A program made the position numbers and the translations under genes. Of a stretch of DNA of 13,127 nucleotides, positions 3,064-9,675 are shown in pieces (positions within the stretch are counted from its first letter, which is position 1; every line of letters starts with the position of its first letter). The stretch lies in NCBI GenBank assembly GCA_947479185.1, contig CANJYY010000034.1, positions 1 through 13,127 on the forward strand, read 5' to 3'. The notes under the pieces are model-generated. The model was not told the DNA's origin. It did not search any database and was given only the letters and a program-made list of their open reading frames with translations. The DNA comes from Caulobacteraceae bacterium. GTDB lineage: Bacteria; Pseudomonadota; Alphaproteobacteria; Caulobacterales; Caulobacteraceae.

Positions 3064-4305
3064 TTATTCCCGCCGCAGCGCCTCGATCGGGTCCAGCCGC
3101 GCGGCGCGCCAGCTCGGATAGGCCCCGAACACCAGCCCGACGATCAGCGAGAAGCCCAGCGAGACGGGGATCGACCAGCCGGCGATGGCCACCGGCCAGT
3201 CGCCGAGCTTGGCCATCAGGAAGCCGCCGCCGACGCCGATGATCAGGCCGATGATCCCGCCGATCACCGACAGGGTGATGGCCTCGAGCGCAAACTGGAA
3301 CAGCACGTCGTTGCGCCGGGCCCCGACGGCCATGCGCAGCCCGATCTCGCGGGTGCGCTCGGTCACGGCGACCAGCATGATGTTCATGATGCCCACGCCG
3401 CCGACAACCAGCGACACGGCGGCCACGGCGGCCAGCAGCGAGGTGAAGGTCTTCACCGAGGCCTGCATGGCCTCCATGATCGAGGCCATGTTCTGGACGC
3501 TGAAGTCGTCCTCGGCGCCCTGGCGGATACGGTGACGCTCGCGCAGCAGGTTGGTCACGTCCTCCTGCAGCCGGTCCATATCGTCGGCGGTGTCGGCCTT
3601 GACGTAGATGGTCTGGACGTTGCTGCCCTGGACGCGTCGACCGACCACGCGGGAGCGCACGGCCTGCAGGGGCCCGAGCACGATGTCGTCCTGGTCCTGG
3701 CCGAAGCCGCTCTGGCCCCTGGAGGCCAGCACCCCGACCACCTCGAACGGCACCGATCCGACGCGGATGCGTTTGCCGACGGGATCAATGTCCGCGCCGA
3801 ACAGTTCGGTGGCGATGGTCTGGCCGATGACGATGACCTTGCGGCCCTGGCGGGCCTCGTTCTCGTCGAACATCCGGCCGGACGCGATGGTCAGGTCGCG
3901 GGCGGTCAGATAGTCGGGCGTCACCCCCTCGACCCGGGTCTGCCAGTTGGCGCCCTCGGCGGTCAGCTGCGCGCCGCCCCGGACGCTTGGCGCCACGGCG
4001 GCGGCGCCCTCGACCTGTGTCTGGATGGCCCTGGCGTCGTCCTCGGTCAGGGTCTGGCCGGTGCCGGCGCCCTGGCTGACAAAGCCGCCGCCCGGACCGC
4101 GCGAGGCGCCGGGCGAGACGATCAGCAGATTTGAGCCCAGGCCGCCGATGGCGCTGGTCACGCGCTGCTGCGCGCCCAGGCCGATGGAGGTCATCATAAC
4201 CACGGCGGCGACGCCGATGACCACGCCCAGCGAGGTGAGGGCGCTGCGGGTCGGATGGGCGATGATGGCGCGGGCCGCGAAGACGACCAGATCGATGCGT
4301 CTCAT
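3064..4305 (-). CDS. macB: MacB-like ABC transporter permease (FtsX/MacB fold)
   Basis: Inner-membrane subunit of a MacAB-type efflux ABC transporter, 413 residues. It has the MacB layout: one transmembrane helix near the N-terminus (about 21-43, HPTRSALTSLGVVIGVAAV), a large periplasmic MacB_PCD domain (about 45-285), then the FtsX domain with three helices (about 286-312, 340-366, 379-399). Family-typical stretches include GGVGIMNIMLVAVTERTREI (302-321), GLRMAVGAR (322-330) and the closing YPSWRAARLDPIEALRRE. E. coli MacB carries its ATPase on the same chain; here ATPase and permease are separate genes, overlapping by 4 bp (ATGA, 4302-4305). GGGAG lies 7 nt before the ATG. MacB-type pumps work by mechanotransmission on substrates in the periplasm. 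The substrate is unknown; macrolide export should not be assumed. LolCE is less likely given the MacA-like partner. Confidence 0.92.
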   Translation of the reverse strand: MRRIDLVVFAARAIIAHPTRSALTSLGVVIGVAAVVMMTSIGLGAQQRVTSAIGGLGSNLLIVSPGASRGPGGGFVSQGAGTGQTLTEDDARAIQTQVEGAAAVAPSVRGGAQLTAEGANWQTRVEGVTPDYLTARDLTIASGRMFDENEARQGRKVIVIGQTIATELFGADIDPVGKRIRVGSVPFEVVGVLASRGQSGFGQDQDDIVLGPLQAVRSRVVGRRVQGSNVQTIYVKADTADDMDRLQEDVTNLLRERHRIRQGAEDDFSVQNMASIMEAMQASVKTFTSLLAAVAAVSLVVGGVGIMNIMLVAVTERTREIGLRMAVGARRNDVLFQFALEAITLSVIGGIIGLIIGVGGGFLMAKLGDWPVAIAGWSIPVSLGFSLIVGLVFGAYPSWRAARLDPIEALRRE

Positions 4306-4985
4306 TGCCCGGCTCCCGATTGATCGGAGATGATCTTGCCGTCCTGGAAGGTCACCCGGCGCCGCGCCTGGTCGGCGACCTTCTGGTCATGGGTCACCAG
4401 CACCAGGGTCAGCCCCTCGGCGTTGAGGTCCCGGAACAGTTGCAGCACGTCCTTGCCGGTCTGGCTGTCGAGCGCGCCGGTCGGCTCGTCGGCCAGCAGC
4501 AGGTCGGGCGAATTGGCCAGGGCCCGGGCGATGGCCACCCGCTGCTGCTGGCCGCCGGACATCTGCGTCGGCCGGTGGCCGGTGCGGGCGCCCAGGCCGA
4601 CCCGCTCCAGCAGGGTGGCCGCGCGTGCGCGCCGTTCGGCCGGCGGCAGGCCGGCGTAGACCATCGGCAGCTCGACGTTCTGCAGCGCCGTCAGCCGCGG
4701 CAGCAGCTGGAAGGACTGGAACACGAAGCCGATCCGCCGGCAGCGGAAGTTGGCCAGGTCATCGTCGTCGAAGCCGGACACGTCCTCGCCATCGAACAGG
4801 TAGCGGCCGCGGGTCGGACGATCCAGGCCGCCGATGATGTTCATCAGCGTCGACTTGCCCGACCCGGACGCCCCGGTGATCGCGATATGCTCGCCGCGCG
4901 CGATGTCGATGGAGACGCCCGCCAGGGCGGCCACCGTCTCCTCGCCCATCTGGTAGACCTTCTCCAGGTCACGGATTTCGATCAT
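4302..4985 (-). CDS. macB: MacB/LolD-type ABC transporter ATPase
   Basis: Nucleotide-binding subunit driving the adjacent permease; cytoplasmic. All ABC motifs are intact in 227 residues: Walker A GASGSGKST (38-46), Q-loop Gln90 in FVFQSFQLLPRLTALQNVELP, signature SGGQQQRVAIARAL (143-156), Walker B LLLADE (162-167) with catalytic Glu167, D-loop ALD, and H-loop His199 in LVTHD. The FQLLPRLTALQNVELP stretch is characteristic of the MacB/LolD/FtsE group. It starts 10 bp after the adaptor stop and ends inside the permease start (ATGA), so the three products should be made together. No strong Shine-Dalgarno precedes its ATG, consistent with coupled translation. It corresponds to the N-terminal half of a full-length MacB. 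Confidence 0.93.
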   Translation of the reverse strand: MIEIRDLEKVYQMGEETVAALAGVSIDIARGEHIAITGASGSGKSTLMNIIGGLDRPTRGRYLFDGEDVSGFDDDDLANFRCRRIGFVFQSFQLLPRLTALQNVELPMVYAGLPPAERRARAATLLERVGLGARTGHRPTQMSGGQQQRVAIARALANSPDLLLADEPTGALDSQTGKDVLQLFRDLNAEGLTLVLVTHDQKVADQARRRVTFQDGKIISDQSGAGQ

Positions 4986-4995
4986 CGAGCGGGAC

Positions 4996-6570
4996 CTACA
5001 TCCGGACCCGGACGCCGCCGCCGCCCATCGGGCCGCCCTGCGTCGCCTTGGGCTTGGCCTTGGGGCCGCCGCCGATGATCACCTCGTCGCCGGCCTTCAG
5101 CGGGCCGACGATCTGGGTGAACGAACCGTCCGACGCGCCGACGCGCACCGGCACGGCGGTCGGCTTGCCGTCGCGCAGGACATAGACCACGCCGGAGGTC
5201 ATGCCGCCCTGGCCACGCCGGCCGCCCATGGCGGCCATCCGCGCGCGCAGGGCAACCAGCTTTTCCTTCTGGGCCGGCTTCAGGATCGGTTCGATACGGG
5301 TCAGCACGGTCTGCATCATCTGCCGCGTGGCCTGACGCATGGCGGTCGGGTCCCCCGACGCCTTGGCCATGGCCTTGGTGCGCTCTTCGGCCAGGATCGC
5401 CTCGACCTTGGCCTTCTGGCCGGCGTCGAGGTCGAGCTGCTCAATCAGCCGCGCGCCCATGGCGCCGCGCTGGCCGGAGCCGGCGCCCTGGCGTTGACCG
5501 CCGGCGCCCGGAGGCGAACCACCGGGGCCGCCCATGGCGGAGCCGGCCGTACGGCTGCTGGTCGAGGCCTGCTGGTCGGGCGGCGTCCAGCGCAGGGCCG
5601 CGGCGGGCACCTTCAGCACGCCGCGCAGCTGCTGGATGACGATGTCGGCGTTGGCCGTCATGCCAGGCATCAACTTGCCGCCCGGGTTCTCGGCCTGGGC
5701 GATGACGATGTAGGCGACGACGTTGGACTCGGTCTCCGGCTGCTTGCGCACCTGGGTCACGACGCCGGTGTAGGTGTCGTCCGGAAAGGCGTCGACGGTG
5801 AAGCGGACCTCCTGGCCCTCCTGCACCTGGCCGATGTCGGCCTCGTCGACGCTGATCTTCACCTCGAGCTTGGACAGGTCCTGGGCGATCTGGAACAGCA
5901 CCGGGGCGGTGAAGCTGGCGGCGACGGTCTGGCCGGGTTCGATGCTGCGGTTGATCACCACGCCGCTGATCGGCGCGACGATGTTGGTGCGGCCCAGATC
6001 GGTGCGGGTGCTGGCCAGCGCGGCCTGGCTCTGGGTCACCCCGGCGCGGGCCGCCTGGACATTGGCCTGGGTCGACTTCCAGGCCGCCATCGAGGTTTCG
6101 AGCGCGGCCTTGGCCATGATGCCCTGGTCATACAGCGACTTGGTGCGGTTGTAGGCGGCGCGGGCCTGCTCGGCCTGGGCCTGGGCCTGGGCGACCTGGG
6201 CCTGGTTGGCGGCGATCTGCGCCTCGCTCTGCCGCAGCCGGCTGACGTAGGTCTGCGGGTCCAGGGTGGCCAACAGCTGGCCGGCGGCCACCTGGTCATT
6301 GAAGTCGACCAGCACCTTGAGGATCTGGCCGGAAATCTGCGAGCCGACATCCACCGTCACCAGCGCCTGCAGCGAGCCGGAGGCCGAGACGGACTTGGTG
6401 ATGTCGCCCTGCTGCACCTGCTCGGTGCGGTAGGGGTCCTTCGGCGCCTTGGGCTTGAACATCTGCCAGCCGCCCCAGACGGCGAGCAGCGCCCCGATGG
6501 CGGCGAGGGCGTAGACGACGGGACGCGGCAGGCCGCCCTTGCGACGGATCGGTGCGGTATGCAGGCTCAT
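4996..6570 (-). CDS. macA: MacA-like periplasmic adaptor with an inserted LTxxQ (Spy/CpxP-like) segment
   Basis: Membrane-fusion protein linking the MacB-like pump to an outer-membrane channel, 524 residues (E. coli MacA is about 370). In order: cytoplasmic basic tail, membrane anchor (about 18-36), first half of the lipoyl domain (VGSQISGQILKVLVDFNDQV, 75-94), coiled-coil hairpin rich in Gln/Ala (about 108-193), second lipoyl half (IVAPISGVVINRSIEPGQTV, 197-216), beta-barrel (about 225-327), then the C-terminal membrane-proximal strands (about 459-500). Between barrel and C-terminal domain lies an unusual stretch, 330-458: a low-complexity Gly/Pro/Gln/Ser linker, then a helical segment with LDLDAGQKAKVEAIL (379-393) and LKPAQKEKLVALR (430-442). 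These match the LTxxQ pattern of the periplasmic proteins Spy and CpxP. A Gly/Met-rich tail ends the protein. It overlaps the EF-hand gene by 4 bp (ATGA). Adaptor call is firm; the nature of the insert is inferred from motifs. Confidence 0.92.
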   Translation of the reverse strand: MSLHTAPIRRKGGLPRPVVYALAAIGALLAVWGGWQMFKPKAPKDPYRTEQVQQGDITKSVSASGSLQALVTVDVGSQISGQILKVLVDFNDQVAAGQLLATLDPQTYVSRLRQSEAQIAANQAQVAQAQAQAEQARAAYNRTKSLYDQGIMAKAALETSMAAWKSTQANVQAARAGVTQSQAALASTRTDLGRTNIVAPISGVVINRSIEPGQTVAASFTAPVLFQIAQDLSKLEVKISVDEADIGQVQEGQEVRFTVDAFPDDTYTGVVTQVRKQPETESNVVAYIVIAQAENPGGKLMPGMTANADIVIQQLRGVLKVPAAALRWTPPDQQASTSSRTAGSAMGGPGGSPPGAGGQRQGAGSGQRGAMGARLIEQLDLDAGQKAKVEAILAEERTKAMAKASGDPTAMRQATRQMMQTVLTRIEPILKPAQKEKLVALRARMAAMGGRRGQGGMTSGVVYVLRDGKPTAVPVRVGASDGSFTQIVGPLKAGDEVIIGGGPKAKPKATQGGPMGGGGVRVRM

Positions 6571-7382
6571 GGGGTCTCGTGTCTCGACAGGGTGGCGGGC
6601 GCCGCAATCTCAATGGCGTTAGCCGTCGTAGGTTGCAGCGGCATTTCAACTGGTTTCGCCGGCGTCTTCCGTCGGGGACGCTCGGGCGGCGCGCTGTCCA
6701 TGGTCTGGGCCGGCGTGACGGGCAGTTCGGCGCGGGTGATACGGCCGTCGTGGTCGGCGTCGAGCAAGGCGAATCGTCGGCGCGCGGCGGCCTCGGCCTC
6801 GGCGCGGCTGACCCGCTGGTCCAGGTCGGCGTCCGCCCCGCGCACGGGATGGGGCTCGTTGAGCAGGCCGTACTGGGCCGCGCCCTGTCGCCGAACCGAT
6901 CGCGGGGCGCCCCGGGGATGAAGGAAGGTCGGCGCGCCGATCACCTGTTCAGCGCGGCTGGTCGGGAATTCGGGCGGCGGACCGCCATCCGGCCGGTCGC
7001 GCCGGACCAGGACGCCGGTGATCTCGGGCGCGACATTGCGCTCGTAGTCGGCGACCTCGAACCCGTCGACGACGCGGTCGCGGTCGGTGTCCAGCCGGTC
7101 GAAGAAGGCCATGGAATCGGCCAGGAATTCCTCCCGGGAAAGACCCTCGTCATGGTCCGCGTCGGCGCGGCCGAACCAGAGCGCGACCGGGTAGGGTTGG
7201 CCCGGCTCGGCGTGGAACGGCTCGCCGGCCGGACTGATGAACAGCTGCGGTGGCGGAGGGCCGCGCGGCGCGGGCGGCTCGACCGGTCCGCCGCCGGGAA
7301 TGGAGATCGGCGCGCCGGGATCCTGGGCAAGGGCAGGGGTGGCGGCGACCATCAACAGCAGGCAGACGAGGCGAGCGCGCAT
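6567..7382 (-). CDS. Secreted EF-hand protein with four calcium-binding loops
   Basis: A 271-residue periplasmic protein expected to bind Ca2+. The signal peptide is MRARLVCLLLMVAATPALA, with likely cleavage before Gln20. A Pro/Gly-rich linker follows, then four EF-hand loops with the D-x-D-x-D...E spacing: 74-85 (DADHDEGLSREE), 98-109 (DTDRDRVVDGFE), 184-195 (DADLDQRVSRAE) and 208-219 (DADHDGRITRAE, the most canonical). About 75 residues of unknown fold separate the two pairs, and the end is a basic, Pro-rich tail. ATG 7382 is chosen because it begins the signal peptide and has GGAG 6 nt upstream; the frame is open to 7466 but the extra residues would bury the signal. Its stop overlaps the MacA-like start by ATGA, so it is translationally coupled to the pump. 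It could act as a calcium-dependent partner or sensor of the pump; that is inference. Confidence 0.85.
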   Translation of the reverse strand: MRARLVCLLLMVAATPALAQDPGAPISIPGGGPVEPPAPRGPPPPQLFISPAGEPFHAEPGQPYPVALWFGRADADHDEGLSREEFLADSMAFFDRLDTDRDRVVDGFEVADYERNVAPEITGVLVRRDRPDGGPPPEFPTSRAEQVIGAPTFLHPRGAPRSVRRQGAAQYGLLNEPHPVRGADADLDQRVSRAEAEAAARRRFALLDADHDGRITRAELPVTPAQTMDSAPPERPRRKTPAKPVEMPLQPTTANAIEIAAPATLSRHETP

Positions 7383-7388
7383 GGAAGA

Positions 7389-7392
7389 CTCC
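7389..7392 (-). promoter_or_regulatory. Ribosome binding site fixing the EF-hand gene start
   Basis: GGAG on the minus strand, 6 nt before ATG 7380-7382. It supports the start at the signal peptide over the longer readings from 7397 or 7466. Confidence 0.6.
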
Positions 7393-7411
7393 GGCATGAC
7401 GGGACGAGTCA

Positions 7412-7433
7412 GCCTGTGGTCCGCCCGTGGCCC
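7412..7433. promoter_or_regulatory. Tandem 11-bp direct repeat, candidate response-regulator site
   Basis: GCCTGTGGTCC (7412-7422) is followed directly by GCCCGTGGCCC (7423-7433), matching at 9 of 11 positions; the core GCCCGTGG recurs at 7441-7448. PhoB/OmpR-family regulators bind direct repeats of about 11 bp, and such a regulator is encoded two genes upstream. The repeat lies 30-51 bp before the EF-hand start codon, in the only gap (86 bp) inside the six-gene block. No convincing -35/-10 pair was found in this gap. Confidence 0.4.
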
Positions 7434-7468
7434 CAGTAAGGCCCGTGGTTTGCGCGACCGCAACATGT

Positions 7469-8920
7469 CTAGAGCGGCAGGGTGACGCGCGCGGTCAGGC
7501 CGCCGGCCGACCGCGAGATCAGCACCACGTCCCCGCCATGCGCCCGGGCGATCGACCGCACCACGGCGAGGCCCAGGCCCGCGCCGCCGGTTTCCCGGCT
7601 GCGCGAGGGCTCGCCGCGATAGAAGGGTTCGAACACCCGCTCGGCCTCCTCGACGGGAATGCCCGGGCCGTCGTCCTCGATCTCGATCACCGCGTCGCCG
7701 TTCTCGGCGAACACCCGGCCGCGCGCCCGCAGGCCGTACTTCAGGGCATTGCCCACGAGGTTGGCGATCAGCCGCCGCAGGGCCAGCGGATCACCCTCGA
7801 CGACCAGTCGTTCGGAGGGCAGGGCGACGGCGTCGGCGCCGGTCTCGGCCGCCTCGTCGAGCACGCTTTCGACCAGCGAGGACAGCTCCAGCTTCTCGCG
7901 CGGCCCGGCGCGGGTGGCGTCGCGGACAAAGCCGAGGGTGGCGGAGATCATCGCGTCCATCTGGTCGATGTCGGCGGCCAGCTTGGCCCGGATGTCGTCG
8001 GGCGCGGCCTCGATGCGGAACCGCAGGCGGGTCAGTGGCGTGCGCAGGTCGTGGGCGATCGCCCCGACCATCGCCGTGCGGTCCTCGACATAGCGCCTCA
8101 GCCGCTCCTGCATGCGGTTGAACGCTTCGGCGGCGGCGACAACCTCGCTCGATCCGGCCAGCTCCAGCGGCGGCGCGCGCGGATCGCGGCCCAGCCGGTC
8201 GGCGGCGGTGGCGAAGGCGGCGATCGGCGCGGCCAGCCGGCGGGCGAACCACCAGGCCAGCGGCGTCACCGCGAGGATCGAGATCAGCAGGGTGATCACG
8301 ACATGGCCCTGCCAGGAGTTCCACTGGAAGCTCGGCTGCGGCCGCGCGACCAGCCAGCGGCCGTCGTCCTGGCGTACGCCGATCTTGAACGGCGCGAACA
8401 GCACCCGTTCGTCGAAGCGCATGGCTGCGCCAGGCCCGGGCCCGGGGCCGGGCGGCGGGCCGTGCTGCATCATGGGACCGCCCGCCGGCGGCGGGCCATG
8501 CTGCATCATCGGGCCGCCGCGAAACACCCGCACCTCGAAGGTCGACTCGACCGAGCGGGAGCGCAGGAACATGCGCCGGGGTCCATCGGTCTCGATGACG
8601 ATGCGGACCGGATCAACCTGCAGGGCCTCGGCGAGGCCCTTGCGCACCTCTTCCCGCCAGCGGCTGCCGCGCTGCCGCAGCGGCTGCTCCCGTGGCGCGG
8701 CGCCCTGCAGGGCGACAACCAGCGGCCGCGCCTCGGGCACGGGCGTCACCCCGACGCCACGCAGCGCGCGGGCGACGTCCGACAGACGGTAGAGTTCGGG
8801 CGGCGGCGGCGGCAGGTGCAGCACGATCGCCGAGGTGATGGCGTGCGACGCGCCGAGGCAGACCACCACCAGCGCCAGCACCTGGAGAAAGATGGGCGCG
8901 CCGCGCCAGGGCGTCTTCAT
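7469..8920 (-). CDS. Sensor histidine kinase of the EnvZ/CpxA/RstB type
   Basis: Inner-membrane two-component sensor, 483 residues. Transmembrane helix 1 is about 8-34, followed by a periplasmic domain of about 170 residues, transmembrane helix 2 (about 204-224), HAMP (about 225-278), dimerisation domain with the H-box GAIAHDLRTPLTRLRF (phospho-acceptor His290), and an ATP-binding domain with N-box LIANLVGNALKYG (384-396), G1 EDDGPGIP (415-422) and G2 GGAGLGLAVV (445-454). All catalytic motifs are intact. The periplasmic part contains a perfect tandem repeat of GGPMMQHGPPP (135-145 and 147-157) followed by GPGPGPG; Met/His-rich runs like this often bind copper or silver, but binding here is unproven. 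The start overlaps the response regulator stop by ATGA (8917-8920). The signal sensed is not known; an envelope or metal cue is plausible given the downstream EF-hand and efflux genes. Confidence 0.93.
   Translation of the reverse strand: MKTPWRGAPIFLQVLALVVVCLGASHAITSAIVLHLPPPPPELYRLSDVARALRGVGVTPVPEARPLVVALQGAAPREQPLRQRGSRWREEVRKGLAEALQVDPVRIVIETDGPRRMFLRSRSVESTFEVRVFRGGPMMQHGPPPAGGPMMQHGPPPGPGPGPGAAMRFDERVLFAPFKIGVRQDDGRWLVARPQPSFQWNSWQGHVVITLLISILAVTPLAWWFARRLAAPIAAFATAADRLGRDPRAPPLELAGSSEVVAAAEAFNRMQERLRRYVEDRTAMVGAIAHDLRTPLTRLRFRIEAAPDDIRAKLAADIDQMDAMISATLGFVRDATRAGPREKLELSSLVESVLDEAAETGADAVALPSERLVVEGDPLALRRLIANLVGNALKYGLRARGRVFAENGDAVIEIEDDGPGIPVEEAERVFEPFYRGEPSRSRETGGAGLGLAVVRSIARAHGGDVVLISRSAGGLTARVTLPL
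8450..8518 (-). repeat. In-frame tandem repeat coding for a Met/His-rich motif in the sensor domain
   Basis: Two copies of a 33-nt unit, offset by 36 nt, code for GGPMMQHGPPP twice within the periplasmic domain of the histidine kinase. The copies differ at several third-codon positions, so the amino-acid repeat is kept while the DNA has diverged, which suggests some selection rather than a very recent slippage. Confidence 0.75.
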
Positions 8921-9675
8921 GAAGAGCGGGTGACCTTGGGCGAGAACATGTAGCCCTCGCTGCGGATGGTGCGGATGATCTCCACGCCGCTGTCGCTGTC
9001 CAGCTTGCGGCGCAGGCGGCTGATCTGCACGTCGATGGCCCGGTCATAGGCCTCGGTGTCCGGTCCGCGGGCCATGTCGAGCAACTGGTCGCGGGTCAGC
9101 ACGCGTTGCGGCCGTTCGACGAAGGCGCGCAGCAGAGAGAACTCGCCGCTCGACAGGTTGACGATCACGCCCTGGGGCGAGCGCAGCTCCCGGCGGACCA
9201 GGTCCAGCCGCCAGCCGGCGAACTCGCAGGTCGCGCCCATCGGCGCGTCCGCGGCGCGGGGCTCCTGCCGCCGGCGCAGCACCGCCCGCACCCGCGCCAG
9301 CAGTTCACGCGGATTGCACGGCTTGGGCAGGTAGTCGTCGGCGCCCAGCTCGAGGCCGACGATGCGGTCGGTTTCCTCGCCCATGGCCGACAGCATGACG
9401 ATGCCGGGGCCGCCTGCGCGGCCGGACAGGCGGCGGCAGATCGACAGGCCGTCCTCGCCGGGCATCATCACGTCCAGCACGATCAGGTCGGCCGGCTCGC
9501 GCTGAAGGGCCAGCTCCATCGACCGGGCGTCGGACGCCTGGTCGACGCGGTAGCCGTGCAGGGTCAGAAAGTCGGCGATCACGTCGCGGATGCCCGGATC
9601 GTCATCAACGATCAGGATTCGGGCGCCGGGGGTCTCGGCGACGCTGTGGGCGGTCTTGTCCATCACGAGCTCCAT
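8917..9675 (-). CDS. PhoB/OmpR-family response regulator
   Basis: A 252-residue transcription factor, cognate partner of the overlapping histidine kinase gene. Receiver domain (about 18-135): acidic pocket Asp24-Asp25-Asp26, phospho-acceptor Asp68 in LIVLDVMMPGEDG, Ser96 in the switch position, and Lys118 in LPKPCNPRELLARV. The C-terminal winged-helix DNA-binding domain (about 150-248) has NLSSGEFSLLRAF, RVLTRDQLLDMARG, the recognition-helix region DRAIDVQISRLRRKLD, and the wing IRTIRSEGYMF. ATG 9675 has AAGG 5 nt upstream; an alternative ATG at 9663 has GGAG 6 nt upstream and would remove only four residues. It probably autoregulates its operon and controls the downstream EF-hand/MacAB genes; this is inferred from order and orientation. 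Confidence 0.93.
   Translation of the reverse strand: MELVMDKTAHSVAETPGARILIVDDDPGIRDVIADFLTLHGYRVDQASDARSMELALQREPADLIVLDVMMPGEDGLSICRRLSGRAGGPGIVMLSAMGEETDRIVGLELGADDYLPKPCNPRELLARVRAVLRRRQEPRAADAPMGATCEFAGWRLDLVRRELRSPQGVIVNLSSGEFSLLRAFVERPQRVLTRDQLLDMARGPDTEAYDRAIDVQISRLRRKLDSDSGVEIIRTIRSEGYMFSPKVTRSS

Follow-up and report, generated by a model that had tools for sequence, protein, structure and literature searches.

MacA adaptors form hexameric funnels, and MacA has also been termed a mechanical transducer (excerpted text of the review PMC13328181). The cargo of MacB-type pumps is picked up in the periplasm and includes proteins of up to ~10 kDa exported by Sec (excerpt of PMC8277102). 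The E. coli periplasmic chaperone Spy binds unfolded clients independently of ATP and dimerises (excerpt of PMC4791398), and the disordered N terminus of Spy helps it to release clients (excerpt of PMC9122904). Spy (3o39, 3oeo, 5wnw) is a free secreted protein, and CpxP (3qzc, 3itf) and the STV/VirG-like protein (5io8, 5ihf) are likewise free. In contrast, in the Caulobacteraceae DNA analyzed here, a stretch of 13,127 nucleotides (the window; contig C34 of a draft assembly that is 73.84% complete), residues 367-450 of a MacA-like periplasmic adaptor are almost certainly a genuine helical domain of the LTXXQ (Spy/CpxP) superfamily, grafted in via a flexible tether. Our computations demonstrate its kinship, its predicted fold, a fixed insertion site, a wide occurrence, and a second attachment site on other adaptors. 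Embedded in a 524-residue adaptor, the insert is a domain of this superfamily and not a Spy or CpxP protein.

The inserted domain and its kinship

The window adaptor shares its core domains and their order with MacA of MacAB-TolC (5nik, 9qgy, 3fpp, 4dk0), and genes for a MacB-type ATPase and permease adjoin it. It differs by ~125 extra residues between the beta-barrel and the membrane-proximal domain, and its ATPase and permease are encoded by separate genes. With the adaptor core fold and these adjoining genes, it is a MacA-like adaptor of the ATP-binding cassette (ABC) type, while the name MacA itself is withheld because the NCBIfam MacA equivalog NF008606 gives 193.6 bits, under its cut-off of 342. 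E. coli MacA chains (9qgy, 5nik, 3fpp) align at adaptor residues 17-327 (3fpp from 42) and 462-509, and the query has 134 residues between the aligned blocks versus ~10 in E. coli MacA. These structure-sequence alignments agree with the initial annotation that residues 330-458 (window 5197-5583, minus strand) lack a counterpart in E. coli MacA. Within this segment, the folded part is confined to residues 367-450, and residues 330-366 are a Gly/Pro-rich linker.

Family profiles carry the kinship. PF07813 matches all 27 non-redundant trimmed inserts at E <= 1 (best 4.7e-7), with the next family at 2/27; these inserts were drawn from the listed homologues and come mostly from Caulobacter or Phenylobacterium where the source is named. 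When 66 inserts are considered (the window and 65 loci from named genomes), PF07813 is found at E <= 0.1 in 51, PF13801 (Metal_resist) in 26, and the next families in 2. Searched against the PDB, the profile of these 66 inserts has Spy in its top four places (E 1.6e-8 to 3.9e-6), followed by the VirG-like 5ihf (E 0.0025) and CpxP (0.18 and 0.41), and the narrower 27-row profile again places Spy first (E 0.0031 to 0.019). Moreover, hhalign aligns the insert profile to 13 free-standing LTXXQ-type proteins with a probability of 99.0 over 82 columns, a result less independent than those from Pfam and the PDB, as 12 of the 13 had been found with the insert profile. As a control, the coiled-coil hairpin of the adaptor itself reaches an hhalign probability of 0.06; when the hairpins of these 66 adaptors are scanned, PF07813 does not appear among the 25 families shown (of 57), which puts it at no more than 1/66. 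Full-length Pfam scans of related adaptors place L022, L135, L145, and L189 above the PF07813 cut-off and L109 below it, with none listed for L107; for P0110, PF07813 beside adaptor domains is already visible in the automatic annotation.

Taken singly, the window sequence gives a weak match. Its insert scores 16.7 bits against PF07813 (E = 0.012; 18.6 bits when trimmed), below the cut-off of 24.3. The full-length adaptor has no LTXXQ match in Pfam at E <= 5, the insert has no match in NCBIfam, and a PDB search with the single insert sequence returns nothing under E = 0.24; these three negative results are outweighed by the profile searches. The profile comparison that the initial annotation had proposed supports its reading for the insert family (Pfam, PDB, and hhalign), with a weak signal from the window sequence alone.

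The predicted structure is in line with the profiles. In the full AlphaFold2 (AF2) model of the adaptor (predicted template modelling score, pTM, 0.63), residues 367-450 form an antiparallel four-helix domain; the insert was also modelled alone, because the fold search with the whole model did not address it. The first 21 structural matches of the insert model are VirG-like, CnrX, Spy, and CpxP chains (Foldseek; E-values not significant alone). Modelling therefore gives what the initial annotation had anticipated, a confident helical domain behind a disordered linker, with chains of the Spy/CpxP/CnrX type as best structural matches.

Both LTxxQ-like motifs lie where they had been located by eye, as LDLDAGQ (379-385) and LKPAQ (430-434). 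L379, L381, Q385, Q434, and L438 are found in 120 of 120 listed homologues and L430 in 119; as these are 120 listed of 131 homologues found, drawn with the insert region itself, their conservation is partly built in. Across the 66 inserts, whose selection used the whole adaptor, each motif keeps its L and Q at >=90%. In the window, D and K stand in place of the motif T; T occurs at these positions in 14/48 and 21/48 inserts of set A5, which holds 48 of the 66 inserts and favors compact copies by omitting 16 Lysobacteraceae-type rows (mostly with long loops), L026, and L088. A further set, A3, takes in the window together with 46 of the 120 listed homologues and 59 of the 65 loci that bear the insert. 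Mean conservation among the 120 listed homologues is 0.54 in the linker (330-367), 0.69 at 370-447, 0.71 in the coiled-coil hairpin, and 0.85 in the rest of the core. The helical part is better conserved than the linker, and the insert does not look like a random expansion.

One detail of the earlier description does not hold: the spacing of about 51 residues "as in Spy/CpxP" is 49 residues from L381 to L430, compared to 73 in E. coli Spy (as taken from the alignment of the insert profile with the PDB). The window copy further differs from Spy in its D and K at the T positions and in having no aromatic residue. The free-standing relative P0130, with a spacing of 52 residues, is compact like the insert. 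Judged by these motifs, the insert is a compact version of the domain with a hairpin shorter than that of Spy.

Occurrence and a second attachment site

Among named records, those closest to the adaptor (within the best 80 of 542 loci) belong to Caulobacterales and Caulobacter, which is the basis for taking the window's family as Caulobacteraceae. A survey of homologues, likewise suggested by the initial annotation, finds the segment in 65 of 80 MacA-like adaptors from named genomes (the same best 80 of 542), a sample biased toward the insert as it was fetched with an insert-bearing alignment. Between the flanks lie 105-157 residues in the 65 insert-bearing adaptors and 21-49 in the 15 insert-less ones. 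Titles among the 65 include Caulobacter, Phenylobacterium, Brevundimonas, Luteimonas, Lysobacter, Pseudoxanthomonas, Burkholderiales, Paraglaciecola, and Candidatus Rokuibacteriota. The source labels of P0132 (Mycobacterium tuberculosis) and L063 (Alistipes) look wrong, probably through contamination or misbinning.

The 27-row profile finds matches in at least 22 of 385 genomes of a class sample, in 16 cases in frames >500 amino acids, and a 48-row profile does so in at least 82 of 398 genomes of a phylum sample. Of the latter, 15 match in frames >=498 amino acids and the other 67 only in frames of 126-331 amino acids, presumably free-standing relatives. Within the window's family, at least 44 of 149 genomes match. 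The window's genome is part of each of these counts, which are lower bounds, with only part of the first-look candidates scored. When the adaptor core serves as query, a match at E <= 1e-30 is reached in at least 100 of 299 genomes of the phylum, and five of the 30 best core-matched loci, the window included, carry the domain at E <= 0.01. Overall, the insert looks like a minority architecture with a patchy distribution among the sequences sampled.

A quick tree of 140 cores comprises 93 with a detected domain, 39 without, and 8 with a long segment below detection; these 8 long rows each hold one to three loosely LTxxQ-like motifs, seven of them with a longer inter-motif stretch. Leaving the 8 long rows aside, the insert state changes at least 7 times on the tree, and the starred branches alone force 5 changes for the domain-less group. 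The tree has no bootstrap, its long branches are flagged, and gain and loss are not distinguished. A single clean origin of the insert is unsupported, given these >=7 state changes.

The domain also occurs at a second site. Adaptors in 8 genomes of the window's family carry a C-terminal LTXXQ domain 4-22 residues from the stop (L003/L111, L135, L138, L144, L145, L148, L154, L156); their kinship to the query core is distant (41-63 bits). The three scanned of these eight (L003, L135, L145) have their best match in the MdtA/MuxA model, at 351-416 bits with two above the cut-off of 391, and thus resemble adaptors of resistance-nodulation-division (RND) pumps. In L145 and L189:1094-3193, a 699-amino-acid MdtA-type adaptor bears two tandem C-terminal LTXXQ domains. 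Some MdtA/MuxA-type adaptors of the window's family carry one or two such domains, but at the C terminus. The L135 adaptor gene adjoins genes for MdtB-type and MdtC-type permeases (L188; 1540 and 1337 bits, both below the model cut-offs). That the same domain is joined to adaptors in at least two ways is the best argument for a role at the pump.

Some further observations concern relatives of the domain. The MdtC-type permease at L188:8450-11845 has ~100 extra Ala/Ser/Thr-rich residues; a domain check rejected this stretch as an LTXXQ domain. The sole PF07813 match in the window's own genome is a 202-amino-acid protein (L001:1297-1905, 61.6 bits), flanked by genes that we take to resemble cytochrome c maturation genes. 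Proteins of 239-329 amino acids in L124:1135-2124, L132, L123, and L129 comprise two or three tandem LTXXQ-like units, and for the L124 protein Pfam lists nothing at E <= 0.01. Just upstream of one of the 15 insert-less MacA-like adaptors, a zf-HC2 gene and a separate Metal_resist-type gene are found (L097:313-1258; 26.2 bits to PF13801, below the cut-off of 29.2), an order presumably like that of cnrYX.

Possible roles at the pump

We favor, tentatively and at somewhat less than an even call, a module that would bind clients or cargo while tethered at the periplasmic entrance of the pump. Because MacA adaptors form hexameric funnels, a pump would probably carry six LTXXQ domains around the funnel base, near the periplasmic domains of MacB. 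Each domain would, like Spy, reversibly bind periplasmic clients such as lipopeptides or polypeptides that are unfolded or amphipathic; these clients would be kept at the pump entrance and then passed to MacB. The disordered linker may aid client release in the manner of the disordered N terminus of Spy. The explanation as a whole, an LTXXQ domain grafted into the adaptor together with client binding and handover to MacB, comes close to an even call. That some MacB and Mdt pumps are equipped with built-in periplasmic chaperone modules, the adaptor ring capturing polypeptides of the periplasm that are unfolded or amphipathic and feeding them to the transporter, is a rather unlikely generalization. 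On this chaperone-module reading, two adaptor types would have acquired the domain, each at a different position and in one case with two copies in tandem, and such pumps would be energy-driven exporters for envelope protein quality control, not only drug pumps.

CpxP acts with CpxA. Since two-component genes adjoin the adaptor gene, the chief rival to a client-binding module is a CpxP-like regulator that would report the state of the pump or envelope to the kinase of the cluster by binding or releasing its periplasmic part, a reading we consider possible yet doubtful. Of the 65 insert-bearing loci (57 with >=2.5 kb of upstream sequence), 23 have a kinase and a regulator gene no more than 4 kb upstream, versus 1 of 15 insert-less loci, counting upstream pairs only. 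This contrast is soft, as insert-less L071 has a downstream pair and insert-less L083 a downstream kinase, and the insert-less group is small and largely from other lineages. The pair is on the opposite strand in L033, L047, L055, and L102. With 42 insert-bearing loci showing no pair within 4 kb upstream, regulation cannot be what the domain does in general. Consecutive locus tags of Sinorhizobium meliloti comprise a free LTxxQ protein and a pair resembling CpxRA (excerpt of PMC2912261), in keeping with a regulatory partnership.

A structural or assembly role, in which the hairpins bind no clients but pair and so lock or stabilise either the hexamer of adaptors or its hold on the permease, is unlikely. 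The position between barrel and membrane-proximal part would suit it, as would dimerisation of Spy, a member of the same superfamily (excerpt of PMC4791398). However, the long tether, modelled with low confidence, would speak against a fixed slot, as do the C-terminal attachment in RND-type adaptors and the inter-motif loop, which is variable and often long in Lysobacteraceae-type rows. More improbable still is a sensor or buffer for a ligand or metal, of the CnrX (Metal_resist) kind, by which pump activity would be tuned: in contrast to the CnrX/NccX sensors (PF13801), the inserts conserve neither His (present in 3/48 of set A5) nor Cys (0/48), and Met, though present, is not invariant anywhere in the alignment of the 120 listed homologues, which disfavors this reading. 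Finally, chance likeness of a low-complexity helical segment to LTxxQ without kinship, for which the weak single-sequence Pfam score and the ability of Ala/Lys/Arg-rich helices to give spurious matches could be cited, is contradicted by the family profile, PDB, and structure results with their negative controls and has a negligible probability.

Among the matches listed in open-licence literature, no title or abstract start describes a fusion of LTXXQ, Spy, or CpxP to an efflux adaptor; the words "Spy" and "chaperone" are absent from the review PMC13328181, and "Spy" from the excerpt of PMC8277102. Both parts are known families, and their combination is seen in databases yet, as far as we found, undiscussed. 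With a domain type known for client binding or stress sensing on relatives of both MacA and MdtA, the question of how MacB-type pumps gather periplasmic cargo becomes testable, and the compact domain of 84 residues can be excised, swapped, or expressed alone.

The gene cluster of the window

Six closely packed minus-strand genes occupy positions 3064-9675 of the window (Table 1; coordinates read from the open reading frames). Overlaps of 4 nt join regulator and kinase, EF-hand protein and adaptor, and ATPase and permease, with gaps of 2 nt between kinase and EF-hand gene and 10 nt between adaptor and ATPase genes; because of this spacing, the cluster is very probably a single operon.

Table 1. 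Genes of the cluster and parts of the adaptor, in window coordinates
Feature	Position	Strand	Basis
OmpR-type response regulator	8917..9675	-	PF00072 and PF00486 (Pfam)
Sensor histidine kinase	7469..8920	-	PF02518 and PF00672 above cut-off; PF00512 26.7 vs 26.9
EF-hand protein, predicted exported	6567..7466	-	PF13499 39.3 bits vs cut-off 30; signal-peptide-like start by eye
MacA-like periplasmic adaptor, 524 amino acids, host of the insert	4996..6570	-	
Canonical adaptor core, residues 45-327	5590..6438	-	E. coli MacA alignment; AF2 predicted local distance difference test (pLDDT) mostly >90
Gly/Pro-rich flexible linker, residues 330-366	5473..5583	-	pLDDT <50 at 342-366
Embedded LTXXQ / Spy-CpxP superfamily domain, residues 367-450	5221..5472	-	Profile and structure matches
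Insert helix 1, 370-379	5434..5463	-	AF2/DSSP
First LTxxQ-like motif LDLDAGQ, 379-385	5416..5436	-	L379, L381, Q385 each 120/120
Insert helix 2, 383-403	5362..5424	-	AF2/DSSP
Insert helix 3, 408-429	5284..5349	-	AF2/DSSP
Second LTxxQ-like motif LKPAQ, 430-434	5269..5283	-	L430 119/120, Q434 120/120
Insert helix 4, 432-449	5224..5277	-	AF2/DSSP
C-terminal strands, MacA fold resumed, 458-505	5056..5199	-	MacA alignment and AF2
MacB/LolD-type ATPase subunit	4302..4985	-	PF00005 124.7 bits; NF007826 280 bits to MacB N-terminal part
MacB-type permease subunit, periplasmic core domain	3064..4305	-	PF12704 175.8 bits; PF02687 75.6 bits

Across loci, 60 of the 65 with the insert have genes for a MacB-type ATPase and permease no more than 4 kb downstream. 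The co-occurrence with EF-hand genes that the initial annotation had raised is limited to 8/65 insert-bearing versus 0/15 insert-less loci; it is a feature of some lineages and not of the graft, and with 8/65 loci only, an EF-hand partnership as a general rule is rejected.

An Rfam scan of the window yields no family reaching its gathering score. The EF-hand protein of the window has two EF-hand stretches and weakly resembles lanmodulin (NF053806, 34.7 bits, cut-off 135), to which it is not assigned. The presumed periplasmic part of the kinase contains, by eye, a Pro/Gly/Met-rich repeat that could bind metal or peptide.
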